DNA of 40,933 nt from a virus: positions 1 to 40,933 of IMG/VR virus record IMGVR_UViG_3300031673_000170. One strand, written 5' to 3'. Made by a program: the position numbers and the translations under genes. The notes beneath the pieces are model-generated. The model ran no database searches. It was not told the origin of the DNA and was given only the letters and a program-made list of their open reading frames with translations. This document shows positions 4,907-29,348 of this stretch, one piece after another; the stretch's first letter is position 1, and every line of letters begins with the position of its first letter.

Positions 4907-5074
4907 GTTCCCAAACCGTCTTCTAGCTTCCGATACCTTTTGAGCAAGCAATATTGAGGATGTGGGTTGAACCAAGACGTGGTCGAACTTGGGCGTTTTG
5001 ACGTATTGAATATAGAAACGTGTTGCTAAATTAGTTGCAAAATTGTGTTAATATAACTTGATCGGTTACTCTGT

Positions 5075-5088
5075 CGTGATCGATCACG
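5075..5088. promoter_or_regulatory. Perfect 14-base palindrome, possible operator
   Basis: CGTGATCGATCACG is a perfect palindrome in a gene-free, AT-rich stretch between two terminators. It follows AT-rich sequence (TTAATATAAC at 5048-5057) that could hold a promoter -10 element. A binding site for a dimeric regulator is possible. There is no flanking evidence for which gene it would control. Confidence 0.3.
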
Positions 5089-5102
5089 ATTTAACTATAG
5101 GT

Positions 5103-5134
5103 AAAAAAAAAGCGTCCGGCGGCAACCGGACGCT
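5103..5134 (-). terminator. Strong rho-independent terminator, minus strand
   Basis: A nine-base perfect stem AGCGTCCGG/CCGGACGCT (5111-5119 with 5126-5134) has loop CGGCAA. On the minus strand it is followed by nine T residues (the A run at 5103-5111). It lies about 85 bases past the stop of the minus-strand zinc-ribbon frame at 5217-5387, which also has a promoter-like site upstream. This supports a real minus-strand transcript. Confidence 0.85.
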
Positions 5135-5216
5135 TATAAACTCACATCCCGAAACGTGAGCCACAAGCATGAACAAAAACGTTCTAGTTTAGCCGTCAAC
5201 CAAGTCAACTGAAAGT

Positions 5217-5387
5217 TTACTTGGGATCCCACCAGGGGCGTTCAATCTTTTCCACGGGTCCGCTGTGGCGTTTTACCCGACCACAGCACAGGCAATGGAA
5301 TCAGGCGCCCTTGACAGCGTGTTTGGTTGTCTTCAGGCAGGCCGTACAGTACCTGTTTTCAGTCTTTACCGGGTCTGTTTCTTCCAC
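5217..5387 (-). pseudogene. Small zinc-ribbon gene interrupted by an in-frame TGA
   Basis: The minus-strand frame from GTG at 5387 encodes 28 residues with Y-C-T-A-C (C14, C17), then TGA at 5303-5301, then 27 residues starting F-H-C-L-C-C-G-R and ending RPWWDPK before TAA at 5219-5217. The two cysteine pairs sit at normal zinc-ribbon spacing only if the TGA is read through, so the frame was clearly one gene. A single TGG to TGA change would explain it. The best ribosome-binding site (GAGGG before ATG at 5401) serves another frame that stops after 11 codons, so the start may be damaged too. A promoter-like site (5424-5452) and a strong terminator (5103-5134) flank it. Decay is the simplest reading; opal readthrough is the alternative. 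Confidence 0.6.
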
Positions 5388-5423
5388 CTGTAGATACCCA
5401 TAAATTACACCCTCAGACGCGTT

Positions 5424-5452
5424 ATTATTATCTATGGGAGGTCTTCTATCAA
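5424..5452 (-). promoter_or_regulatory. Sigma70-like promoter for the minus-strand zinc-ribbon gene
   Basis: On the minus strand TTGATA (5452-5447) is followed after 16-17 bases by TAATAA/AATAAT (5430-5424), close to the TTGACA-17-TATAAT consensus. Transcription would start near 5418, giving a short leader with GAGGG before the first ATG. Matched by eye only. Confidence 0.5.
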
Positions 5453-5532
5453 CCATTCGAAGGGCTGTCTACGCTGCCCAAATAAACGCGTAGGACGGAG
5501 CTGACCGATTTTCAGCGTTAAGGAGGTGTTGC

Positions 5533-6519
5533 ATGCGTAATGGTTTAGTGGTGCTGTTGTTGTTGTGTCCGTGGACTGGGTGGGCCGAGTTAAGTTACGA
5601 TGGCATGATTGCTATCAAATCCAACAAACCTGATACTATTATCCAAGTCCGTAAAGAAATCACTAGTGAAGGGAAAGTAACTCAACTATGGATAAACATT
5701 GGTACAACGTCTAAAGATGGATCTTACCTATTACTCAAAATGCCTGTCGGCGTACATAGAATTAAATTATCAAAGGATGGATACTTACCAATCATTACTA
5801 ATATAACTGTGGACAAAAAAATCAATAAAATTGAATATGAACTTGATAAGGAAATGAATGATATAAATATCATTTTTCTTCATGAAGGTTGGCAAGTTTA
5901 TGTAGATGGGAACCCATATCTGGATGATGATAAACCTGTTTTTGCCCCTGCTTCTATTATGGTGAGTAAGGAGAAGCATGAGATTAGGTTGGTGAAGGGT
6001 GGTTTTAATGATATTGTGAAGAGGATTAATGGTGAAGACACAGTGGAGATTAAGGATGAGCCTATTAGAGGGAAAAGTACAATAAAAAAGAAAAAAGAGA
6101 TAAAAGAAACAAAAAAAGAAAACACCACGAATTTCACGAATTCATTTGACTTTGAAAATTACTCAATAGAACAATGGAACAATATTAGTGGGATTACTGT
6201 GATAGTATCATCAAAGTCAACCTTAGACACCAAAATAAATATAGACGAAACTCACAAATTTGCTATTGTTCCTAACCCTGATGATAGATGGGCATCAAGT
6301 CCAGATCCATTGCACGAATGCAACTATAGAGGATTAAAAAACTATCCACATAATGGAAAATTTACAATGGCATTATGTTATAAAGTAAATAATTTCATAG
6401 AACAATATGGAGTAACAAAAGGAACTGGCCGTTTAATATTATTTGCTAATGACAATAAGTATGATGACAATCGTGGAAATATAAGAGTTAAATTAGTACC
6501 TATACCTTTTTCCAAATAA
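5533..6519 (+). CDS. Secreted PEGA-like protein, AT-rich probable moron
   Basis: A 328-residue protein with a strong AAGGAGG site. Residues 1-18 form a signal peptide (hydrophobic LVVLLLLCPWTGWA) with cleavage likely before ELSYDG. Two repeats resemble PEGA surface domains: about residues 75-100 (SKDGYLPIITNITV) and 120-160 (WQVYVDGNPYLDDDKPVF). A lysine-rich linker follows near 185. The C-terminus has a jelly-roll-like patch (GRLILFANDNKYDDNRGNIR) whose N-D-x4-D-N-x-G pattern recalls calcium-binding lectin folds such as LecA; this is a weak resemblance. Beyond the first 70 bases the gene is far more AT-rich than all its neighbours, which suggests recent transfer. It probably acts in the host envelope or outside the cell. 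Confidence 0.8.
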   Translation: MRNGLVVLLLLCPWTGWAELSYDGMIAIKSNKPDTIIQVRKEITSEGKVTQLWINIGTTSKDGSYLLLKMPVGVHRIKLSKDGYLPIITNITVDKKINKIEYELDKEMNDINIIFLHEGWQVYVDGNPYLDDDKPVFAPASIMVSKEKHEIRLVKGGFNDIVKRINGEDTVEIKDEPIRGKSTIKKKKEIKETKKENTTNFTNSFDFENYSIEQWNNISGITVIVSSKSTLDTKINIDETHKFAIVPNPDDRWASSPDPLHECNYRGLKNYPHNGKFTMALCYKVNNFIEQYGVTKGTGRLILFANDNKYDDNRGNIRVKLVPIPFSK

Positions 6520-6520
6520 T

Positions 6521-6670
6521 AAGAATATCATCCCGTCCCGGCCGCCATGGCTGGGGGACGACCTCAAAGACCAGTCAACTGAGGATGAAGTAGTAAGATG
6601 CGCTGGTTGTGGTAATTGCTTCGATTTACACGCGCTCGCCTTGTGGCGCGGTTCTGATGACGGAGAGTAG
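6521..6670 (+). pseudogene. Open zinc-ribbon frame without a start codon, likely gene remnant
   Basis: A plus-strand frame open from 6497 to TAG at 6668-6670 reads PPWLGDDLKDQSTEDEVVRC followed by AGCGNC, FDLHALALWRGSDDGE. The C-A-G-C-G-N-C cluster and acidic C-terminus look like coding sequence, but no ATG, GTG or TTG occurs in frame. It directly abuts the end of the AT-rich moron at 5533-6519, so it could be the 3' end of a gene disrupted by that insertion. A hairpin at 6534-6560 (CGTCCC/GGGACG outer stem, GGCC/GGCT inner stem) lies at its 5' part. Chance openness cannot be excluded. Confidence 0.35.
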
Positions 6671-6698
6671 GAATACGATACGTCAGACTGAGCAGCCG

Positions 6699-7448
6699 TT
6701 ACAACGATCGGCCGATCTCTTCGGCCTTGTTGGGTTCCAGCGAGCCCATTGCTTGCATGAGGAGCTTTGCATAATCATCCTGGCGCGCGCGGGCGTTGCG
6801 ATACCCAACCAACGAGATCGTGATTACACCCACCATGAGCAGGACCATAAACGCGCCCATCAGCCGGTAATTGCCTGTGATAACATCGACGGCTTGTTGC
6901 GGAAGCATGTTCATGTACGAGTCGCGACCCGACTTTATTTCGGCTTGCAGCGTGGACATGGTCTTTTCAATTGAGTTGCCTATCCCGGCCTGCCCGGCAA
7001 CGGTTGCATCGAGTTGACCGGACAGATTACCCAGGTGCGCGTTCATGTTGTTTGAAAGCGTGATCTGGGTCTCCATATGAACTTTCAGCGCGGCCATCAG
7101 CTGGATGGTGGACGTCAGATCAGCGCGCAGGTCAGCCACGAGCTTGTTGTCCATCTTGGCTTCGATCTTGATCAGCTCGCTCAGCGTGGCTTCGATCTTG
7201 TGAATTTGGCCGGTGATGTGGCCGGAGAGCTGGGCCTGGTTGGCGGCCATGTCGGTCTTGACGTTCTGGGATACGCGCGCGGCCGTGTCCTCCACAAGCT
7301 TGCCCGTGTCCGCCGTGTTGATTATCGGTGGCGGCACGTTAATCTGCGGCTTGTATTCGTGGACGGCCGTTTGGCGGGTCTTGTTGTCTGCGATACATCC
7401 TGTTAAAAGAAGCAAAACCAAGGTCAAACTGAGTGAACGCGCGGGCAT
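6699..7448 (-). CDS. Lipoprotein with C-terminal transmembrane segment, candidate unimolecular spanin
   Basis: A 249-residue protein. Residues 1-18 are a lipoprotein signal with lipobox LLTGC (C18). Residues about 55-190 are a long helical, coiled-coil-prone periplasmic region rich in Ala, Gln, Asn and Thr. Residues about 196-216 (LMGAFMVLLMVGVITISLVG) form a transmembrane segment, followed by a 33-residue tail. An outer-membrane lipid anchor plus one inner-membrane span in a single chain is the layout of phage u-spanins such as T1 gp11, which fuse the two membranes at lysis. It is longer than T1 gp11, and no endolysin or holin is recognised nearby, so another envelope role is possible. AGGAG precedes the ATG, and a promoter-like site lies at 7482-7510. 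Confidence 0.75.
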   Translation of the reverse strand: MPARSLSLTLVLLLLTGCIADNKTRQTAVHEYKPQINVPPPIINTADTGKLVEDTAARVSQNVKTDMAANQAQLSGHITGQIHKIEATLSELIKIEAKMDNKLVADLRADLTSTIQLMAALKVHMETQITLSNNMNAHLGNLSGQLDATVAGQAGIGNSIEKTMSTLQAEIKSGRDSYMNMLPQQAVDVITGNYRLMGAFMVLLMVGVITISLVGYRNARARQDDYAKLLMQAMGSLEPNKAEEIGRSL

Positions 7449-7481
7449 AATTGTCTCCTAAAAATTGACCCCTCGCACGTT

Positions 7482-7510
7482 ACTATACCCTGGTGTTGAC
7501 GTTGTGTCCG
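7482..7510 (-). promoter_or_regulatory. Sigma70-like promoter for the spanin-like gene
   Basis: On the minus strand CGGACA (7510-7505) and TATAGT (7487-7482) are separated by 17 bases, 35-40 bases upstream of the gene start at 7448. The -10 is good and the -35 matches only its GACA part. On the plus strand the same spot holds TTGACG (7496-7501) but no good -10 at the right distance, so a divergent promoter for the RNA at 7524 is not established. Confidence 0.4.
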
Positions 7511-7523
7511 CTTTAAACAATTG

Positions 7524-7817
7524 GATTGTGCGGGAGGTAGGCTTAGAAGCAGCCAGCCGGCTTGAGAACCGGTTACCTTTAAAGAGTGGTGATAGGCGCA
7601 AGTGACCGCAGGGAATTGATCTGCATCAATCCTGCATACCGGTGAGACTCGCCGGAATTGGAAGGCAGACCAGACCGGATAACGCTGAAGGATCTTTGCG
7701 TGAATGAACCCTGGAGTAGCGCATCGAAGAAGGCAAGCCGGTACGGAAAACGGGTTGCAAGGGCGTGGTTCCCCGAAATGACCAATAACCTCTGGCGTAA
7801 CAGCACACCGCACAATC
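7524..7817 (+). ncRNA. Structured RNA resembling the 23S rRNA GTPase-associated centre
   Basis: A perfect 10-bp long-range stem (GATTGTGCGG 7524-7533 with CCGCACAATC 7808-7817) closes the domain. Just inside, the order matches E. coli 23S rRNA 1051-1108: GA; a helix-43-like arm with GGCTTAGAAGCAGCC (7540-7554, exact match); TTTAAAGA (7578-7585); and a helix-44-like GCGTAACAGC (7795-7804; E. coli has T for the C). Equivalents of A1067 (7545) and A1095 (7799) are kept. Helix 43 carries an extra hairpin (7555-7574), and about 207 bases (7588-7794) are inserted at helix 44. The insert has its own hairpins: 7608-7635, 7639-7655 and 7682-7701. It sits 21 bases upstream of a 45-codon gene. Function is unknown; L11, elongation-factor or RelA interaction is inference. 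The strand follows the match. Confidence 0.7.
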
Positions 7818-7838
7818 TTCAAAGGAAAGGAGAAAGAC

Positions 7839-7976
7839 ATGAAAGGGCCAGTACACATTAAGGTTCCGTTGGACAAGGTCATGGCCGAAGTTGAGAAGGC
7901 CATGGCTGCGAGGCGCAAGTTGGGGCTCACGAAGAAGTCTCCGGAGGCAGCTAAAAAGGAAGTGAAAAAGAGTTAG
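7839..7976 (+). CDS. Small basic protein of 45 residues downstream of the structured RNA
   Basis: The ATG at 7839 follows GGAAAGGAGAAAGAC, a strong ribosome-binding site. The product starts MKGPVHIKVPLDKVMAEVEK and ends in a lysine-rich tail (TKKSPEAAKKEVKKS) before TAG. The middle is a short amphipathic helix (AEVEKAMAARRKLGL). There is no signal or membrane segment. It is flanked on both sides by highly structured sequence and probably shares a transcript with the 23S-like RNA upstream. A small RNA-binding protein would fit its charge, but no family is recognised. It ends with TAG, which the phage's own suppressor tRNA (24315) could in principle read. Confidence 0.7.
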   Translation: MKGPVHIKVPLDKVMAEVEKAMAARRKLGLTKKSPEAAKKEVKKS

Positions 7977-7980
7977 TATC

Positions 7981-8272
7981 TAGTGGAGTGGTACTGCTAT
8001 CACCCCCGGCCACTAAATAGAGCGAGGGTTCGCCCCCGCTCCGATTCGGCCTCCGGCTGCGCAGGTGAGCGCAGTGTAACACCTTGACGAACTTACCAAG
8101 GGGGGGAAGGTTGTGGTCTCGTCAGATTTGGCGATACCACAATCGCCCATGGTAGCCGCGTCCGGATCCGCGGCGTAATTCGCGGTGGCTGAAGGCCGGT
8201 CCGGGAAACCGGACCGGCCACTTTACAAGCTTATTTGATACCGGGGAACCCCGGCGCCTTATCGCGCCGGGG
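7981..8272 (+). other. Run of seven strong hairpins between a small gene and the terminase gene
   Basis: Seven consecutive inverted repeats fill this gene-free stretch: 7981-8014 (TAGTGG/CCACTA around GTGGTA/TATCAC), 8020-8041 (GAGCG/CGCTC with GGG-TTCG-CCC), 8057-8074 (CTGCGC/GCGCAG), 8111-8142 (TTGTGGT/ACCACAA plus TCGTCA/TGGCGA and a GATT loop), 8155-8174 (GCCGCG/CGCGGC), 8194-8219 (11-bp perfect stem with a GAAA loop) and 8249-8272 (9-bp perfect stem). A run of seven Gs lies at 8100-8106. Tetraloops of the GAAA and TTCG types suggest RNA function. It may be a second structured RNA, a 3' extension of the RNA at 7524, or include a packaging signal next to terL. The last two stems may also terminate transcription. 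The strand is uncertain. Confidence 0.5.
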
Positions 8273-8294
8273 AATCGTTCACGTTTTTATTTAG

Positions 8295-10118
8295 CTATGA
8301 CAGGGGAATGGGATTTGGTGGGCTGGCGAAGCGCAGCTGCTCTGCCGTCATTTTGATTCCCTGTACAGACGACAGATCCGGGTAGCTTTGCTCCGTGTGA
8401 TAAATAGCCATGAGCCCGTAGTTGAGGGCGTGGGCAAAGTCATCGGTTGATTTTGGCCGCTTGCGGATCAGATATATATCGGATTTGCCGGGCGCCTCAT
8501 GCTTGTCTTCGAGCAGGTTGAGCAGGTCGTGGGTGACGTTCTTGCTGCTCTCGTATTCAGGCAAAAGCACCATGCCGGTTTTGATGGTGGTGGCTTGCAA
8601 TACGAGGCTGCGGGCTTTATCCAATGAGTAAAAGCCTCGCATCTCAGCCCGGTGCGGCGGCGTGTAATAGATGATATTCCGTGTTGACGCGCTCACGTAT
8701 ACGAAGTTGATGATGAGGTTGACGGGAAATCCGGATTGAATCAGGAGGGTTTCACGGACCGACCCTGACCCGCCATAGTCATGTGCCACGAAATGACAGG
8801 CCCCCTCCCGGAACAGGTAAAGGACGCGTTTGACTTCTTCGTCGTGGGTATACCCGGCATGAAGTCGTTCGCAGTAAAAGCACTTGTAGAGCCCGTCGGC
8901 CGGATCCAGGCCTACCATGGCGACTGTGGTGAATGAGATTTCTTCTTTGCCGCCACCGCCCCAGTCTATGCCCAGAACGCGAACCTTGCAGCGGCGGAAA
9001 CCATCGATGGCTTTTTCGAGATCGTTCGGTGGAAGTTTGGAGGCGCGCTGGATGTCGGTTAAGGTGATGAGGTGGATGCCTACGTCGGCGGATTCACCCA
9101 GCACCTCGTTGAGGTATTTTTGCGGGCTATAGCCGCGTTTGCCGTCGCGCTTGGCCAACAGATCCAACCACTTGTCCTCGTTGGCATAATGCATGGGCAT
9201 GATGACCTGCGGAACGTGGTAACCGGGAAAGGTGTGACCTTTGCTGATATCGGTGTGGTACCAGTGCCCGTTTCGAGGATCCAGTGGTCGCTTACATTTG
9301 GCGCATACGACCGTATGCCGCCCTACCATGTTGTGCAGGTCCTCGTGTATGGAGGCCATGTTCCACTTGCCGCAGGCATAGCAAGGGGTGACCCATTCCG
9401 CCTTTGAGGAGTCCTGCCACAGCGCTTCGATGGTGTTATCGAGCGTTTTGGGCGTGCCCGAGTAAAAAGACAATCCCAGCGACGAGGCAGACATGCACTC
9501 GTGGATGATGGGAACGAAGTCGTAATCTATATCCTGTACCTCGTCGAAATTGATAAGGTCGCAGGAGACGCCGCGAACGCGGTCCACATCTAGAAAGGCG
9601 AAGGAAAATATCATACTGGCCTGGTTTGCAAACGTTCTTTGCAGCACGGCCTTGGATGTGTTCTCCCCGATGAGCAAGGGATTGATCAACGATTGCGTGA
9701 TGAAAGGTCGCACGTAGTTGCTGGACAATCGCTTGATCTGTTCAAAGCGGGGAGTCACAAAAAGCATTTGGAGAAAGGGGGAACCTGCGCAACGCAGAAC
9801 TCCGCTGGCGGCCAAGGACGTCGATTTGGAAACCTGACGACCGCATTTCCACAACATTTGTTTGGGCAGTTCAAGTTTGAAGATGGGCTCAAACGGGAAG
9901 TGATTCTCGAGATTATAAGCTCTACCTCTGAGGCTGAGCATTCCGAGAAGCGGTATGAAGGAAGTCAATTCGTGCGTAGCGAAGTGCTCTTGCGCAGCTT
10001 GTAAAATTTCAGTTGCCTTGAGCTGTTCACCGTTGGCGTGTCTGTGACGCAATGCCTCTATCTTCGATAAACGGGCGCCGTGGTCGGCGTCAGCAACATG
10101 TAGAGAGGAGTTAATCAT
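8295..10118 (-). CDS. terL: Terminase large subunit
   Basis: A 607-residue motor and nuclease that packages phage DNA into proheads. The ATPase half shows a Walker-A-like GRQVSKST (residues 93-100), a Walker B with catalytic acid (CDLINFDEVQD, D192-E193) and a coupling motif (YSGTPKT, about 219-225). A zinc ribbon follows (C246, C249, C272, C275). The RNase-H-like nuclease has acidic residues in GIDWGGGG (D385), AHDYGG (D447) and DDFAHALNYG near 570. The ATG at 10118 abuts the ATG of a divergent plus-strand gene (CATATG), with AAGGA about ten bases upstream. It ends in TAG at 8297-8295. No small subunit is recognised in the window. Confidence 0.93.
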   Translation of the reverse strand: MINSSLHVADADHGARLSKIEALRHRHANGEQLKATEILQAAQEHFATHELTSFIPLLGMLSLRGRAYNLENHFPFEPIFKLELPKQMLWKCGRQVSKSTSLAASGVLRCAGSPFLQMLFVTPRFEQIKRLSSNYVRPFITQSLINPLLIGENTSKAVLQRTFANQASMIFSFAFLDVDRVRGVSCDLINFDEVQDIDYDFVPIIHECMSASSLGLSFYSGTPKTLDNTIEALWQDSSKAEWVTPCYACGKWNMASIHEDLHNMVGRHTVVCAKCKRPLDPRNGHWYHTDISKGHTFPGYHVPQVIMPMHYANEDKWLDLLAKRDGKRGYSPQKYLNEVLGESADVGIHLITLTDIQRASKLPPNDLEKAIDGFRRCKVRVLGIDWGGGGKEEISFTTVAMVGLDPADGLYKCFYCERLHAGYTHDEEVKRVLYLFREGACHFVAHDYGGSGSVRETLLIQSGFPVNLIINFVYVSASTRNIIYYTPPHRAEMRGFYSLDKARSLVLQATTIKTGMVLLPEYESSKNVTHDLLNLLEDKHEAPGKSDIYLIRKRPKSTDDFAHALNYGLMAIYHTEQSYPDLSSVQGIKMTAEQLRFASPPNPIPLS

Positions 10119-10277
10119 ATGAGTCTAATCCTTGGAGTGCTGGGTGGGATGGCTGCAGCTTTGGCGATGACTTTCATGAAAGTTTTCACCACGGCGTTGA
10201 ACGTGCTTGTGGTCGTGGCAGAGATTTTGGCCAAGATCGTCGTAGCAAGAGTTCAGTCCCGCGCGATGGCATTTTAG
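10119..10277 (+). CDS. 52-residue hydrophobic membrane peptide
   Basis: The ATG at 10119 has GAGGAG eight bases upstream, inside the terL coding sequence. The product starts MSLILGVLGGMAAALAMTFM and continues with TTALNVLVVVAEILAKIVVA, then ends SRAMAF. It is one long or two short membrane segments with few charges. Size and hydrophobicity are compatible with a small holin or another membrane effector, but no charged C-terminal tail typical of many holins is present. It is divergent from the terminase with touching start codons, so expression of the two may be mutually exclusive or co-regulated. It ends with TAG. Confidence 0.65.
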   Translation: MSLILGVLGGMAAALAMTFMKVFTTALNVLVVVAEILAKIVVARVQSRAMAF

Positions 10278-10298
10278 CAGTCTCCGTGTATACTGTCT

Positions 10299-10326
10299 TT
10301 GGTGCTGGGAGAAACCTTACACCAAG
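10299..10326 (+). other. Hairpin in the leader of the 10348 gene
   Basis: TTTGGTG and CACCAAG pair over a 15-base loop just upstream of the AAGGAGG site at 10334-10340. A -10-like TATACT occurs at 10289-10294, with only a weak -35. It could be a leader structure or a weak terminator of the small membrane gene; there is no T-tract. Confidence 0.3.
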
Positions 10327-10347
10327 ACATTATAAGGAGGTTTGATA

Positions 10348-10572
10348 ATGTCATCAAGAAGCCCCATGGATTACCTGGAACGTAAACGCATCTTTGCACC
10401 GCGGACGCGACACCTTCCCCGTTTTAACACGTTGGCCCAGCATAGCCACAGAAGGCCCATCATTCATGATCCGGTTCTGATCGGGCCAGACAACGTAGCC
10501 GATCGGGTTTTCACCCAGGAAGAAAGAAAGCGCGTGCCGTACGCGCCCAACTGTTCACAATGCAAGAGTTGA
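10348..10572 (+). CDS. Small basic unknown protein (74 residues)
   Basis: AAGGAGG lies seven bases before the ATG at 10348; a TTG at 10342 is in frame but overlaps that spacing. The product starts MSSRSPMDYLERKRIFAPRT and is rich in Arg, His and Pro (RHLPRFNTLAQHSHRRPIIH). It ends NCSQCKS, a single C-x2-C pair. The end overlaps the start of the next gene by 13 bases, so they are cotranslated. No family is recognised. Confidence 0.75.
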   Translation: MSSRSPMDYLERKRIFAPRTRHLPRFNTLAQHSHRRPIIHDPVLIGPDNVADRVFTQEERKRVPYAPNCSQCKS

Positions 10573-10949
10573 TCTTAATCACCACGCTTGCTGCCGGCGC
10601 CAACTGGCAAATGGTGGAAACATTTCACCACGGATCCATATTCGAAAAATTCCGAGCACAAATGGAAGTGCGTGAAGGGTTCATCCCGGAGCTATTGTCG
10701 TGCCCGTTTTGTCTGTCCCATTGGACGGCTGCGGGGTTTACGGCCCTGGTCCTGGCATGCCACCCGGTAGAGGGGTGGATGTACCTGGCGCCAATCATAT
10801 GGCTTACCATCGTTAGAATGTCAAATGTCATGAACGACGTGGGTCACCGTTTCTGTCGTTCACCAAAAAATCCCGTTATCGAGGAGGAGCTGGCTGCGCT
10901 GGATGATATCGGGCAGCCTGAAGAAAATGGCCGAGACGAAAAATCCTGA
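10560..10949 (+). CDS. DUF1360-like membrane protein
   Basis: A 129-residue protein that begins inside the previous gene. After an N-terminal hydrophobic helix (MQELILITTLAAGANWQMVE) it carries LLSCPFCLSHWTAAGFTALV, which matches the C-P-x-C-x2-H/F-W signature of the DUF1360 family found in many phages and Firmicutes. A second hydrophobic stretch (YLAPIIWLTIVRMSNVMNDV) follows, then an acidic tail. The family is a small membrane protein of unknown function. The C-terminal coding region overlaps the next gene. Confidence 0.75.
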   Translation: MQELILITTLAAGANWQMVETFHHGSIFEKFRAQMEVREGFIPELLSCPFCLSHWTAAGFTALVLACHPVEGWMYLAPIIWLTIVRMSNVMNDVGHRFCRSPKNPVIEEELAALDDIGQPEENGRDEKS

Positions 10950-11247
10950 AGGGACGCCTGACCAATCCGAAGTGCAAACGAGGTTACGTTTTGACCGGGA
11001 AGTTGAACTTCTTGCAAAACTTGCAACAGAGACTCTATTGAAGGTTCCTGAGTTGCGCGGGGTAACCATTATTTATGACTGGGCTGTTCCCGGTGAGGGC
11101 CTTCCGTCAGGTTACTATTCACCGCGGGAGGTTTCAGTCGAATCTCTTGCCTCCATGAACAAACAGATTCCTGCATTTGCCATACAGCTCACGCGCATGT
11201 GGGCGAAGTTGGTCGAGCAGGTTGCTTCGAACCAAACATCTTCATAA
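10927..11247 (+). CDS. Unknown 106-residue protein
   Basis: An alternative ATG at 10903 would add MISGSLKK and overlap the upstream gene by 47 bases; the ATG at 10927 (MAETKNPEGTPDQSEVQTRL) has a weak GAAG site. The protein is acidic at the N-terminus, then helical (FDREVELLAKLATETLLKVP) with a beta-like patch (GVTIIYDWAVPGEGLPSGYY). There is no membrane segment or cysteine cluster. It overlaps the DUF1360-like gene, so it is likely in the same operon. No family is recognised. Confidence 0.65.
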   Translation: MAETKNPEGTPDQSEVQTRLRFDREVELLAKLATETLLKVPELRGVTIIYDWAVPGEGLPSGYYSPREVSVESLASMNKQIPAFAIQLTRMWAKLVEQVASNQTSS

Positions 11248-11316
11248 TTCCTGAACTTTGAATTCAATTGCGGGCCAGAGGCGTTGGAAGGTCTCTTTCA
11301 CGCAGAAAGGATAACC

Positions 11317-12300
11317 ATGGCTGATTGCAAATGGGGGCCGGACTTCACCTTTCGGGACAATTGTAAAACGACGAATCTCCTGAGTAAAAATTTTTCATAC
11401 GACGTCGTCCCGTTTTACAATTATATGTTGAAGTTACTGCTGGGATCCTCAGCAGGTAAGCTTGAATCGCGCAAACTCCAAATAGGTAATGGGCCGTCCG
11501 TCCTTTTTAAGGACACGGATATAGCTTCCTCGCTACGCGACGTAGTGACGGATTATCTCTACGAGATGTATGGCCGGCCCAAGTGGTTTGTAGATAAGAC
11601 GACCTTCAATCTGCTGAATACCATAAGCCTCGACAGCGACGATCTCAGTGGGATCATTTTTCCACATGACGTCTTTTCGTTGGTCTTTGAACACGGGGTC
11701 GAGTTGGAAGGATTCCCGTTGCGCAATATCCGCGTTTATCGCAGGGCTGCGAGTATGACCACCAAGTTTTTAAATCAGCTGGAGGTGGAATTTACAAAAA
11801 GCGAGGTAGAGCTGGTAAACCTCATGATCGATACAGGCGAGGTTGTAATGTCAAACAACACAAGTTGGGATACACCACCATATCTGACCCGGAAGTGGAA
11901 CTGGTCACGGCCGCTTAAAGATCCGGAATATACGTTGAACTTCGCAACAACACTAAGTGCACAAGAAAAGAATGTGGTGGCCAGAGTGAGTAAGATCGTG
12001 GCCTCTGCCTTGATGTACAAGGCAGCCCGCCCAGACCTGGTTCCAGAATACGTCCTGCCGCGCTCACAGCGTTATTCGTTCAAAGGGGATAAAAGGACCT
12101 ATCGACGGATTTTGGCCCCGCAGGCGCCGCCAGGACGAGAATACGCCCCCAATCCGACGGGGCGTGAGGTTCGTGGGCACTACCGTGGGTGGGTATTGCG
12201 CACGTTGAGGCATGAGAAATACAAGCGTAACGCCGATGGCTCGTTTAAAACTGTTTTGGTTGAACCAGTGGCTGTGAAGGGCGGCCCTTCAGAGGATTAA
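11317..12300 (+). CDS. Unknown phage protein with C-terminal GHxRxW-type domain
   Basis: A 327-residue protein. AAAGGA lies five bases before the ATG at 11317; an upstream TTG at 11284 is less likely. The N-terminal two thirds are helical and soluble. The C-terminus reads GREVRGHYRGWVLRTLRHEK with a preceding basic patch (KGDKRTYRRILAPQAPPGRE) and a following VLVEPVAV strand. This G-H-x-R-x-W plus V-x-P layout is a recurrent C-terminal module in phage and plasmid proteins of unknown role. It lies in a run of plus-strand unknown genes. No enzymatic motif is visible. Confidence 0.75.
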   Translation: MADCKWGPDFTFRDNCKTTNLLSKNFSYDVVPFYNYMLKLLLGSSAGKLESRKLQIGNGPSVLFKDTDIASSLRDVVTDYLYEMYGRPKWFVDKTTFNLLNTISLDSDDLSGIIFPHDVFSLVFEHGVELEGFPLRNIRVYRRAASMTTKFLNQLEVEFTKSEVELVNLMIDTGEVVMSNNTSWDTPPYLTRKWNWSRPLKDPEYTLNFATTLSAQEKNVVARVSKIVASALMYKAARPDLVPEYVLPRSQRYSFKGDKRTYRRILAPQAPPGREYAPNPTGREVRGHYRGWVLRTLRHEKYKRNADGSFKTVLVEPVAVKGGPSED

Positions 12301-12303
12301 GAA

Positions 12304-12891
12304 ATGTCGGCCAGATCAAGGAGATTGAGAATGAAACATGTGTCGCCAGAAGGTTTCAGTATACGTAGTACCGGAGAGACGTATGGCGCCATCAAAACGG
12401 TGCGCCGGCCTGAGGAGGTTGGGCCAGGGTGGGCGCTGATTGAAATCGTCTACGAGGACGTGTTTGAAGGCGGCTCGATTGACGTGCCTGTTTATACCGA
12501 AGGCGGCGGGTCGGGTTGTACGGGTTATTGGTCCAGTCAGAGCCTTGGCGTAAAGGCGATGGCCAGAAAACCCCTGTTTGTAATGGGGCACTTGAGGGAT
12601 AAAGAAATCGAAGAGCTTAAATCACAGCTGGAGTCTGAGCAGCATGCCCGCGGCAAAGCTGAGAGGACGGCACAGGAGTTTACAAAGATGGCCAACGACA
12701 TCCACGTCATCAATCTTAAGTTGGAGAAGCAGAGAGCCGAGCTATTGGGTGAGCTGGCAGAGGCCCGTTCGGCCTTGAGAAATACAGAAGAAAAATGCAG
12801 GCTCATGGAAAAGCACATCGGAAAAATCAGGGACGAGATTGGCGTCATGCGAATGAAGGAAATTCTGGGCATCCAGGAGCTGATGCTGTGA
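12304..12891 (+). CDS. Coiled-coil protein of unknown function
   Basis: A 195-residue protein; AGAGGA lies seven bases before the ATG, and it starts three bases after the previous stop. Residues 1-95 look like a small beta domain (KTVRRPEEVGPGWALIEIVY; SIDVPVYTEGGGSGCTGYWS). Residues 96-185 form a clear heptad coiled coil rich in Glu, Lys and Leu (EELKSQLESEQHARGKAERT; AELLGELAEARSALRNTEEK). The stop overlaps the GTG of the nucleotidyltransferase gene by four bases. It probably dimerises or trimerises; the partner is unknown. Confidence 0.75.
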   Translation: MSARSRRLRMKHVSPEGFSIRSTGETYGAIKTVRRPEEVGPGWALIEIVYEDVFEGGSIDVPVYTEGGGSGCTGYWSSQSLGVKAMARKPLFVMGHLRDKEIEELKSQLESEQHARGKAERTAQEFTKMANDIHVINLKLEKQRAELLGELAEARSALRNTEEKCRLMEKHIGKIRDEIGVMRMKEILGIQELML

Positions 12892-13361
12892 TATTACGGG
12901 GTCCAAATGACTTGCGCAGCTGGCGCTCGGCTGTAGCCGAAGCCGGGTTGCGCATTCTATTTACCAACGGCTGTTACGACATTCTCCATGCCGGCCACGT
13001 ACGCTTCTTCGAGGCGTTACGCGGCCGGTATAAGAAGATCGTGTTGTTGGTGGCGCTAAATACGGATGCTGGCATAACCCGGTTGAAGGGGCCTGCGCGT
13101 CCGCTCAACACGCTGGAAAACAGGATGTGCGTTGTAGCCGCAAACAAATACGTTGATGCTGTTACCTGGTTTGACGAGGATACCCCGGTGTCGTTAATCG
13201 AATTGATCAAACCCGAGGTTCTTGCCAAGGGCGGTGAATATTCGTCCGTGGTTGTTCCCGGGGAACCGGAGGTGTTGGCTTACGGCGGCGAAGTCTGTAA
13301 GGACTTCTTCTTCCCGGGAATCTCGACGACCGGGATTGTTGACAAAATGTTGAAAGCTTAG
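12888..13361 (+). CDS. HldE/RfaE2-like nucleotidyltransferase (heptose-1-phosphate adenylyltransferase type)
   Basis: The GTG at 12888 overlaps the previous stop (GTGA), with AGGAG eight bases upstream. An in-frame upstream extension would read through the neighbour. The 157-residue product has the cytidylyltransferase-like HxGH motif (NGCYDILHAGHVRFF, residues 27-41), ARPLNTLENRM, AKGGEY and the C-terminal GISTTGIVDK motif (ISTSS-type). This is the order found in RfaE domain II / HldE-C, which transfers AMP to heptose 1-phosphate for LPS core. Related enzymes make CDP-glycerol or FAD. In a phage it could alter host LPS or make a sugar nucleotide. The substrate is not provable from sequence. 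Confidence 0.85.
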   Translation: MILRGPNDLRSWRSAVAEAGLRILFTNGCYDILHAGHVRFFEALRGRYKKIVLLVALNTDAGITRLKGPARPLNTLENRMCVVAANKYVDAVTWFDEDTPVSLIELIKPEVLAKGGEYSSVVVPGEPEVLAYGGEVCKDFFFPGISTTGIVDKMLKA

Positions 13362-13397
13362 TTGGAAGACGGCGGGGCGAAAGAGAGCCAGGGGTAC

Positions 13398-13574
13398 GTG
13401 TCCAAGGCCCAGCCAAGAACGTGTGTGAAATGTCTACATTTTAAGAAGGACACGATTGAGGTTATTAGGTTTGAGCAGAAGTGGACAGAGGACAAAAACC
13501 TCAGATGTGGGCTTGGAGGTTTTGCCGTAAAAAAGATGGCGACGTGCAACTTATGGTCGGACGCCAGCTTTTAG
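13398..13574 (+). CDS. Small four-cysteine protein
   Basis: The frame is open from TTG at 13362, but that codon has no ribosome-binding site; GTG at 13398 (AGGGG three bases upstream) gives MSKAQPRTCVKCLHFKKDTI. Cysteines occur as C-V-K-C, then C in NLRCGLGG and C in MATCNLW, spacing that could bind one zinc ion. About 58 residues, basic. It follows the nucleotidyltransferase directly. No family is recognised, and the start is uncertain. Confidence 0.55.
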   Translation: MSKAQPRTCVKCLHFKKDTIEVIRFEQKWTEDKNLRCGLGGFAVKKMATCNLWSDASF

Positions 13575-13591
13575 TAACAAGTTACAAATGT

Positions 13592-13631
13592 AGCACCTTG
13601 TTGGACGTTCCGTAAGAAAAGGAGAAATACG
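13592..13631 (+). repeat. Repeated 5' leader element (copy 1 of 3)
   Basis: AGCACCTTGTTGGACGTTC, then an AAAGGAGAAATA-type ribosome-binding site. Similar sequence stands before two other genes: 13868-13906 (AGCGCCTTGTTGGGAGTTCC) and 15211-15247 (CCGCCTTGTTCGCAGTTTGA). In all three the CCTTG begins 34-36 bases before the start codon. A weaker relative precedes the caspase-like gene (23449-23483). The conserved distance suggests a promoter, a processing site or a leader structure rather than leftover homology. Confidence 0.5.
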
Positions 13632-13862
13632 ATGGACCATTTGTTGCGAATTCACATGGACGGTAACAAATTATATGTGTTCGGCGAGTGTTCGACCGAC
13701 GAGCACGAGATGTATCTCCCGGATTGCACCGAAGAGAAAATCAAGAAGTTTCTTTCGAAGCACGTAGATCATGTGGCACAAGTGCTCACCGAAGTCCGCC
13801 CGTGGAACGAGCGGCAGGATACCGCCAACGACCAAGCTCAGCTTCGGAGCGAAGCGGAGTAA
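13632..13862 (+). CDS. Unknown acidic protein (76 residues)
   Basis: AAAAGGAGAAATACG precedes the ATG. The product starts MDHLLRIHMDGNKLYVFGEC, continues with a strand-helix pattern (HEMYLPDCTEEKIKKFLSKH) and ends in a polar tail. No membrane segment is seen. It has its own copy of the repeated leader element, so it is probably a separately expressed small gene. No family is recognised. Confidence 0.75.
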   Translation: MDHLLRIHMDGNKLYVFGECSTDEHEMYLPDCTEEKIKKFLSKHVDHVAQVLTEVRPWNERQDTANDQAQLRSEAE

Positions 13863-24314: not shown

Positions 24315-24387
24315 GTCTCCGTAGCTCAATTTGGCAGAGCAGCGGATTCTAAATCCGTGGTTGCGGGTTCAATTCCTGTCGGAGACA
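24315..24387 (+). tRNA. tRNA with anticodon CTA (amber suppressor)
   Basis: A full cloverleaf: acceptor GTCTCCG/CGGAGAC (perfect), D stem GCTC/GAGC, anticodon stem GCGGA/TCCGT, loop TTCTAAA (24347-24353), variable GGTT, T stem GCGGG/CCTGT with loop TTCAATT, discriminator A. The 34-36 bases are C-T-A, which reads UAG. The sequence resembles phage arginine tRNAs whose loop is TTTCTAA; a one-base shift would turn TCT into CTA. CCA is not fully encoded (ACAT follows). The charged amino acid cannot be read from sequence; G1-C72 and A73 do not match the E. coli glutamine set. It lies directly after the caspase-like gene. Confidence 0.9.
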
Positions 24388-24391
24388 CATA

Positions 24392-25432: not shown

Positions 25433-25799
25433 GGGGCCGACTTAGATTCGACGTTGTGTGCGGAGGATACAGGGGCAGATCGCGGTTGGGTAGTTGGCCG
25501 CGTTAACAAGCTACCCAAACAACAAGTGCCAACAACAAAGTTGTTGCCGGCAACTTCGGCGCAAGCCGGATTGCCCTCGCAGCCTAACCAGCTGCGGGTA
25601 AAATCGCCAGCGCGCCACTGATTCCCGGCAAACGCTGGAAGGTCCAAAGGGGATCGGACTGATGGATAGACATCTGACGGCGGCCAAAGGCCGTTGACAC
25701 GAGCGTCATCTCGGCGGAAAGACGAAACGATGACTAAATCTGTAGGCCCTGTGTTTTAAGCCATAGCGGACTTGGGGGCAGATCCCAACGGCTCCACCA
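25433..25799 (+). ncRNA. ssrA: tmRNA (transfer-messenger RNA)
   Basis: The 5' end GGGGCCGACTTAGATTCGAC carries the conserved ATTCGAC, and the 3' end CGGCTCCACCA pairs with it: GGGGCCG/CGGCTCC with the G3-U70 wobble typical of alanine charging. The T arm is TTGGG/CCCAA with an unusual loop GGCAGAT. Pseudoknot 1 is clear (GCGG/CCGC and GGGTAG/CTACCC, about 25476-25516). The tag frame starts at the resume codon GCC (25528) and ends at TAA (25585-25587): ANNKVVAGNFGASRIALAA. The ALAA end is the usual protease signal. tmRNA rescues stalled ribosomes. The phage copy encodes CCA. Confidence 0.93.
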
Positions 25800-28451: not shown

Positions 28452-29348
28452 ATGAGTAGCAGTGTACAGGTGTTAGCAGATAAAAATCTCATACAACCGC
28501 CAAAATGGTTACCGTTAAACGTACACTACGAAACCATCATGGGGTCCGTTGCTTACGGCGTGTCGAGTGATACATCCGACATGGATGTCTACGGTTTCTG
28601 CATCCCGCCGAAGGAAATCATCTTTCCGCATCTGGCCGGTGAAATACAGGACTTCGGCAGGCAGAAGAAGAGGTTCGAGGAGTTTCAGCAACATAGGGTA
28701 GTTTATGGGGATAAGACCTACGATCTGTTAATTTACAGCATCGTAAAGTATTTTTCGTTGTGTATGGAAAATAACCCTAACATGATCGATTCCCTTTTCA
28801 CGCCTGACAGCTGTGTTCTCCACATCAGTTCGGTAGGGCTTATGGTGCGGGAACAACGGCAGCTGTTCTTGCACAAGGGGGCCTGGCATAAGTTCAAGGG
28901 TTATGCCTACAGCCAGATACACAAACTGAAGAATAAGAACCCGGCCGGAAAACGTTTGGAGTTGGTTGAGAAGTACGGGTATGACACAAAATTCGCTTAT
29001 CATACGGTTCGACTGCTAAACGAGATTGAGATGATATTGTCTGAGGGTACTTTGGATTTGCAGCGTAATCGGGAGCAGCTTAAATCGATTCGGCGTGGCG
29101 ATTGGAGTGAACAGGCTGTTCTTGATTATTTCAGTCAGAAGGAATTAAGTTTGGAGGGACTATATCAGTCCAGCAAACTGAGACATGGTCCTGATGAGGA
29201 GGCGATTAAGGCCTTGTTGCTTAATTGCCTGGAGCACCATTACGGCAGCCTTGACAAGTGTGTGGTCAAGGTTGGTGTAGCCGAGTCTTACTTAAATGAG
29301 ATCACCGCGGTTGTTGACAGGTGGAGAAATACGGGGAGATCAACGTGA
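28452..29348 (+). CDS. RlaP-type nucleotidyltransferase
   Basis: A 298-residue protein. The nucleotidyltransferase active site is MGSVAYGVSSDTSDMDVYG (about residues 30-48, GS plus D-x-D). It continues with YDLLIYSIVKYFSLCMENNP and NMIDSLFTP, the pattern of family RlaP (PF10127), often near RNA ligases in phages and bacteria. The C-terminal helical part reads YHTVRLLNEIEMILSEGTLD. The substrate is unknown; RNA end modification or repair is plausible given the tRNA and tmRNA of this phage. It ends in GTGA overlap with the next gene. Confidence 0.82.
   Translation: MSSSVQVLADKNLIQPPKWLPLNVHYETIMGSVAYGVSSDTSDMDVYGFCIPPKEIIFPHLAGEIQDFGRQKKRFEEFQQHRVVYGDKTYDLLIYSIVKYFSLCMENNPNMIDSLFTPDSCVLHISSVGLMVREQRQLFLHKGAWHKFKGYAYSQIHKLKNKNPAGKRLELVEKYGYDTKFAYHTVRLLNEIEMILSEGTLDLQRNREQLKSIRRGDWSEQAVLDYFSQKELSLEGLYQSSKLRHGPDEEAIKALLLNCLEHHYGSLDKCVVKVGVAESYLNEITAVVDRWRNTGRST

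Follow-up and report, generated by a model that had tools for sequence, protein, structure and literature searches.

The window analysed here (IMG/VR record IMGVR_UViG_3300031673_000170, a viral stretch of 40,933 nt taken whole) carries at 7524-7817, on the plus strand, one member of a large family of non-coding RNAs borne by many unrelated phages. Each RNA holds a complete copy of the GTPase-associated centre of 23S rRNA (GAC; E. coli 1055-1104) inside a covarying closing stem of its own, and across the family a variable domain of 25-346 nt is inserted between 1090 and 1091. The family, with its GAC core, is real and widely distributed, and it is new to Rfam 15 and to the open literature searched. 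We explain it, with moderate confidence, as a GAC-copy RNA that may act in trans on host uL11 and the partners of uL11, serving them as a decoy or platform.

Members and layout of the family

The curated set holds 140 non-identical members from IMG/VR, a few bacterial contigs (mostly MAG contigs) and named phages, which after de-duplication were placed in one ungapped frame. The exact 15-mer GGCTTAGAAGCAGCC is found in at least 119 IMG/VR stretches, about half of which have the same extended architecture, the others being members that have diverged further, coding sequence or chance matches. The phage-specific 3' element TTTGGCGTAAYAGCACACC occurs in 106 stretches among 2.9 million viral contigs, and the slightly shorter TTTGGCGTAAYAGCACAC in 18 stretches of 257 Gb of bacterial and archaeal genomes, 13 of them members that lie mostly on MAG contigs. 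Cultured carriers include GAP32, CBB, BF, six pEa_SNUABM phages, Kaldavass, XbC2, XaC1 and XacN1, and also pf16, UNO-G1W1, 4_4572, Milchi and Astolliot; in the complete cultured genomes whose regions were opened, the RNA lies in unannotated gaps or beneath small spurious ORFs, and it goes unmentioned in the papers on CBB and XacN1. No Rfam 15 family scores above its gathering score over the RNA in any member tested. A search of the open literature, with preprints and most subscription journals outside its scope, found neither a phage GAC or L11 mimic nor any description of a phage-encoded RNA copying a functional centre of the ribosome.

A covariance model from which the window, pf16, GAP32, CBB, Milchi and 4_4572 had been withheld gives 82 bits for Milchi and 80 bits for Astolliot. 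Its sole matches in the 41 kb of the window are two half-matches, at 7521-7617 and 7734-7819 (E 4e-5 and 6e-4), the match being split in two because long inserts break it. The family model has no match in T4, T5, phage G, phiKZ, RaK2 or the uL11-encoding cyanophage PhiMa05, and the one 15-bit match in KVP40 is without the GAC core. T4 rnaC and rnaD were rejected as members, since neither has a GAC core by eye and T4 gives no match to the model.

The three rRNA-like blocks reported in the initial annotation, GGCTTAGAAGCAGCC at 7540-7554 (the sole copy in the window, where 5.7e-5 are expected on both strands), TTTAAAGA at 7578-7585 and GCGTAACAGC at 7795-7804, lie where they had been placed, as does the perfect 10-bp closing stem, and the equivalents of A1067 and A1095 are kept as it had stated (Table 1). 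Helix 43 (H43) with a 9-nt loop and helix 44 (H44) with a 6-nt loop follow in order within the closing helix. The long insert that had been put at H44 is present, but its site needs correction: it is outside the H44 loop and interrupts the 5' side of that helix between 1090 and 1091, so that the GUAACA hairpin loop is whole. Because the P1 pair 7533-7808 corresponds to G1055-C1104 of the rRNA, the private stem extends H42 in register, and this register is constant among relatives whose stem sequences are unrelated. The extra hairpin between 1077 and 1078 is shared by 20 of the 140 relatives. By alignment, the nearest insert types to that of the window are those of L212 and L022, and a DNA pattern describing the insert type of the window itself gave zero matches in IMG/VR.

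Table 1. Coordinates of the GAC-mimic RNA and the adjoining reading frame in the window
Feature	Position	Strand	Remarks
Whole GAC-mimic RNA	7524..7817	+	Ends defined by closing stem
P1 closing stem, 5' strand GATTGTGCGG	7524..7533	+	7533 = G1055, 7532 = 1054; 10 bp with 7808-7817
Helix 43 equivalent (1056-1077), loop UUAGAAGCA	7534..7555	+	A1067 = 7545; alignment to 23S and 140 relatives
Extra 19-nt hairpin, 3' side of H43, between 1077 and 1078	7556..7574	+	
1078-1090	7575..7587	+	H43 3' strand, UUUAA junction (tertiary pair 1082-1086), G1087, A1088, U1090
Variable insert domain, 203 nt, basal stem GGU/ACC	7588..7790	+	
Linker UCUG	7791..7794	+	Family consensus UUUG
Helix 44 hairpin (1091-1100), GC-GUAACA-GC	7795..7804	+	A1095 = 7799
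A1101 C1102 A1103	7805..7807	+	A1101 pairs with U1090
P1 closing stem, 3' strand CCGCACAATC	7808..7817	+	7808 = C1104
45-aa basic ORF with ribosome site, directly after RNA	7839..7976	+	

Counting against the proposed reading, the window copy taken alone has a minimum free energy (MFE) fold just 1.2 sd better than shuffles, and its GAC-constrained fold lies 16 kcal/mol above the MFE in an energy model without tertiary contacts. The Rfam model of LSU rRNA, which had been proposed as a check, does match the window, over just 23 nt and with 9.4 bits. Because this model alone is weak on the window, the claim depends on relatives, which abound. Scans for promoters and terminators at the window locus gave nothing useful.

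Covariation, inserts and retention of the loops

Absence of covariation in related phages had been named at the outset as grounds for giving up the idea; the covariation found is strong. Among 52 diverse members, 92.9% of cells pair, compared with 67.0±0.9 in shuffles, and both sides have changed in 359 cells (115±10 in shuffles), while sliding the partners by one column lowers pairing to 34-41%. Over all 140 members, the P1 pairs from 1054-1105 to 1048-1111 are 70-97% paired against 38-81% expected from column composition, H43 1058-1080 is 97% paired against 42%, and the basal stem of the insert (i1-i3) is 95-100% paired against 41-57%; the P1 sequences at 1053 and beyond are unrelated between members. 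An unsupervised mutual-information scan to which no structure was supplied placed P1, H43, the insert basal stem and 1082-1086 at the top. The last of these, a tertiary pair of the GAC, covaries (UA 64, CG 48, AU 17) and ranks 7 among all pairs, and the tertiary pair U1060/A1088 is UA in 140 of 140. The linker reads UUUG in 130 of the 140 members, and A1101, which pairs with U1090, is present in 99% of members and is a phage hallmark, the Paenibacillus, Bacillota and Bacteroidota rRNAs examined having U1101. RNAalifold offers an alternative in which the UG of the linker pairs with C1102-A1103; these columns are nearly invariant and fit either fold. Judged from these alignments, a GAC-like fold is almost certain. 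It is also evident that the RNA is no stray rRNA fragment, as had been held at the start; it is a widespread folded mimic of the GAC whose stems covary and whose relatives are abundant.

Because the main set of 140 members was seeded by GAC loops, loop conservation within it is biased, and searches with insert motifs only were used instead; C1072 and C1092, for instance, are invariant in a set that was partly selected by the C1072 and C1092 motifs. The type-A insert motif (CACCCC..GGUAAGG) retrieves about 29 distinct members, essentially all with the GAC hairpin of H44; three of them have changed the 1092-1099 pair from C-G to U-A in a compensating manner, and A1067 is found in 24 of the 24 with a readable H43. 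The type-B motif gives 28 members with an intact junction, all 28 of which keep H44, and H43 lies within 2 mismatches in 25 of them. Both GAC loops are gone in the type-C relatives L228 and L241, in which P1, the junction and the linker are kept, H43 is shortened and H44 is replaced by a GNRA-like hairpin. The GAC is thus retained in most lineages and not in all, and the loops are not always needed, which counts against the proposed reading. L228 (4400-4860) and L241 (1-420, reverse strand) form a branch from which the mimicry was lost or in which it never arose.

A sarcin-ricin-like stretch in long type-C inserts (L044, L162, L178 and others) has 5 near-exact copies, compared with 0.04 expected. 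We rejected a mimic of the sarcin-ricin loop because the copies belong to one homologous subfamily and because the UAGUACG strand pairs, with covarying extensions, with an invariant upstream CGUACUA in an H-type pseudoknot. This apparent pseudoknot, CGUACUA(n) / (n)UAGUACG, is seen in the long type-C inserts of L044, L073, L090, L140, L162, L178 and L228, where a second stem lies beside it, as does a conserved stretch, AGAGGA, resembling the sarcin-ricin loop.

Genomic neighbourhood and the host

A tRNA or tmRNA gene lies at most 500 bp from the RNA in 75 of the 140 members and at most 15 bp away in 43, and all 439 tRNA and tmRNA genes within 2 kb share its strand; in L117 and L090 a tmRNA adjoins it. 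Two copies per phage are found in L061 (318 bp apart), in L252 and in the records of L028, L137 and L129, and L155 bears two copies about 300 bp apart with clearly different inserts. Clustering of the neighbouring proteins found no partner shared across the family and otherwise clade-specific genes; the widest cluster, with 11 loci, is homing-endonuclease-like by eye. No phage-encoded L11 gene was found in 40 phage records. The absence of a conserved partner protein and of a phage L11 gene points to a host target. L12-like domains occur in 4 of 40 carrier records, mostly partial and two of them over the cut-off, which is too few to argue for a link with the RNA. In L276 (UNO-G1W1), L278 and G030:C1:122884, ORFs of 127-232 aa contain a partial L12 C-terminal segment (PF00542 positions 9-37).

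The window represents part of the genome of a tailed phage and includes genes for terminase, DnaB-type helicase, primase and polymerase, a tmRNA and a tRNA with a CUA anticodon. Its GAC-mimic RNA is flanked by a divergent gene and the 45-aa ORF, whose ribosome site follows about 20 nt after the RNA; this ORF is probably co-transcribed with the RNA and is not a conserved partner. The CUA tRNA (24315-24388; tRNA-Pyl according to ARAGORN), possibly an amber suppressor, and the tmRNA (25433-25799) are about 1 kb apart. A caspase-like peptidase C14 gene (23409-24314; PF00656, E 2e-27) stops right before the CUA tRNA, and at 28452-29348 this phage, a carrier of structured RNAs, has a gene of the RlaP family (PF10127), which is linked with RNA repair.

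A at 1067 is usual in most bacterial GAC sequences, and a lack of Shine-Dalgarno (SD) sites before genes is a known trait of Bacteroidota. In some members A1067 is changed to G or C, and G1067 makes up 11% of the main set. Among the genomes scored, the 23S rRNA of 16 of 36 Bacteroidota has G1067 (with C1097), compared with 0 of 11 Bacillota. With one phage taken per insert cluster and SD use serving as a proxy for the host, SD-poor phages account for 8 of 10 G1067 clusters and 16 of 86 A1067 clusters (P = 1.8e-4, Fisher's exact test). These results suggest, as supportive evidence only, that the GAC copy is kept in tune with the rRNA variant of the host, which is expected if a host protein must recognise the RNA. 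The natural G1067 and C1097 of Bacteroidota may also bear on their response to thiostrepton-type drugs.

Proposed function, alternatives and known systems

Few RNA-protein sites are understood as well as the GAC, for which crystal structures, affinities and drug probes exist, and RelA is known to need L11. The phage RNA folds as an authentic copy of the 23S GAC, its private stem standing for H42 and its variable extra domain being grafted into the 5' strand of H44, and we propose that it is free-standing and acts in trans. To judge from its neighbourhood, it would most likely be made together with the phage tRNAs during infection. A 58-nt GAC RNA folds even in isolation and provides the site to which L11 and thiostrepton bind (PMC4409310). 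The phage copy would bind host uL11, which we consider fairly probable, and through or beside uL11 the other GAC ligands, namely the L10/L12 stalk, EF-G/EF-Tu and RelA. As a decoy or docking platform, a role to which we give an even chance, it could shift host translation or the stringent response in favour of the phage: ribosomes may be starved of L11, RelA may be blocked, a GAC-directed enzyme may be baited or the phage may use the platform for itself. Any exact role in the stringent response is unlikely. The wider proposition, that many phage lineages possess a host-matched class of RNA that rebuilds a ribosomal centre and captures uL11 and translation GTPases or RelA in trans, stands in our view evenly poised.

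Because A1101 (in 99% of members), the UUUG and the insert site characterise the members and are absent from the rRNAs examined, and because the stems covary, complete cultured genomes carry the RNA and the flanks are unrelated to those of an LSU rRNA gene, accidental capture of host rRNA or contamination of assemblies is refuted and its probability negligible, even though one phage record, Pd_22F, does hold a true piece of rRNA; an LSU rRNA gene or fragment was rejected for the same features. Control in cis, in which the RNA would mimic rRNA as a leader and regulate a downstream gene as ribosomal-protein leaders do, finds an example in the window, where the RNA stops just short of the ribosome site of the 45-aa ORF; elsewhere tRNAs directly follow and no gene is consistently downstream, so that these contexts largely refute it for the family and leave it highly improbable. 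It is also conceivable that the RNA works as a counter-defence bait by sequestering a toxin, nuclease or modifying enzyme of the host whose target during infection is the 23S GAC. The host-matched sequence and the loops conserved in the loop-blind samples would fit an enzyme that reads the GAC, and methyltransferases such as NHR bind isolated GAC RNA (PMC4409310). Such a bait is nevertheless improbable, since A1067 has become G or C in some members. No anti-phage system directed at the GAC is known to us, which argues against it too.

A possible reading, if on the unlikely side, is that the RNA, uL11 and the host stalk form a platform for taking over translation, gathering elongation factors or tRNAs for the phage, or that the RNA aids the function of phage tRNAs. 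It draws on the position in tRNA arrays and beside tmRNA in L117 and L090, on the tmRNA and CUA tRNA of the window phage and on the L12-like segments of 4 of 40 carriers; but phage tRNA arrays contain many unrelated genes, no partner gene is conserved, and the L12-like matches are rare and mostly partial. In our ranking, a decoy or platform for uL11 is placed first, a bait for a defence enzyme next and regulation in cis last.

The phage RNA resembles the 23S GAC (the L11-binding domain, E. coli 1051-1108, H42-H44) in H43 and H44, both loops, the UUUAA junction, the tertiary pairs 1060-1088 and 1082-1086 and the register of the H42 end pairs, but it is free-standing, encoded by the phage and closed by a private stem, has the pair U1090-A1101 where rRNA has U1101, and carries the 25-346-nt domain and UUUG between 1090 and 1091. 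The rRNA-mimic leaders of r-protein operons, such as the uL1 leader of the L11-L1 operon, likewise imitate the site of an r-protein on rRNA; theirs, however, act in cis on bacterial r-protein mRNAs, whereas the phage RNA lies in tRNA arrays, and no r-protein gene was found beside it in the annotated contexts or the neighbour clustering. With phage tRNA arrays, tmRNA and the stable RNAs C and D of T4 it has its genomic surroundings, and probably also its transcripts, in common. GOLLD, ROOL and other ornate RNAs of phages and prophages are also large, structured, non-coding and near phage tRNAs; in contrast to them, the core of the present RNA is a known ribosomal domain, and it has no Rfam match in the members tested.

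Huge and large phages carry genes for translation, including tRNAs, tmRNA, factors and ribosomal proteins (PMC7162821), and the RNA suggests a new means by which phages might manage the translation of their hosts. If it does capture uL11, translation GTPases or RelA in trans, this would be an RNA-based hijacking of the translation GTPase cycle; if it is a decoy, uL11 or the GAC would be exposed as a phage target, and the RNA could serve as a naturally occurring inhibitor of translation factor recruitment, or as a reporter for it. The variable inserts may be taken as a natural library of scaffolds on a known RNA fold. Because the GAC is so well characterised, cultured phages such as pf16, GAP32 and UNO-G1W1 offer an immediate way of testing the idea.

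In L001, a 77-kb viral contig that also has a GAC mimic, a dense cluster of more than 30 tRNAs (5062-11327) encloses a full-length RNase P RNA of class A. L095 bears a borderline match to the type-P5 twister ribozyme (12687-12763), 0.8 kb after its GAC mimic, and a tmRNA at 13276-13663. A 507-aa protein that is Ro60/TROVE-like by eye lies about 1.2 kb downstream of the RNA in L212, and such a protein is near the RNA in four loci in total.
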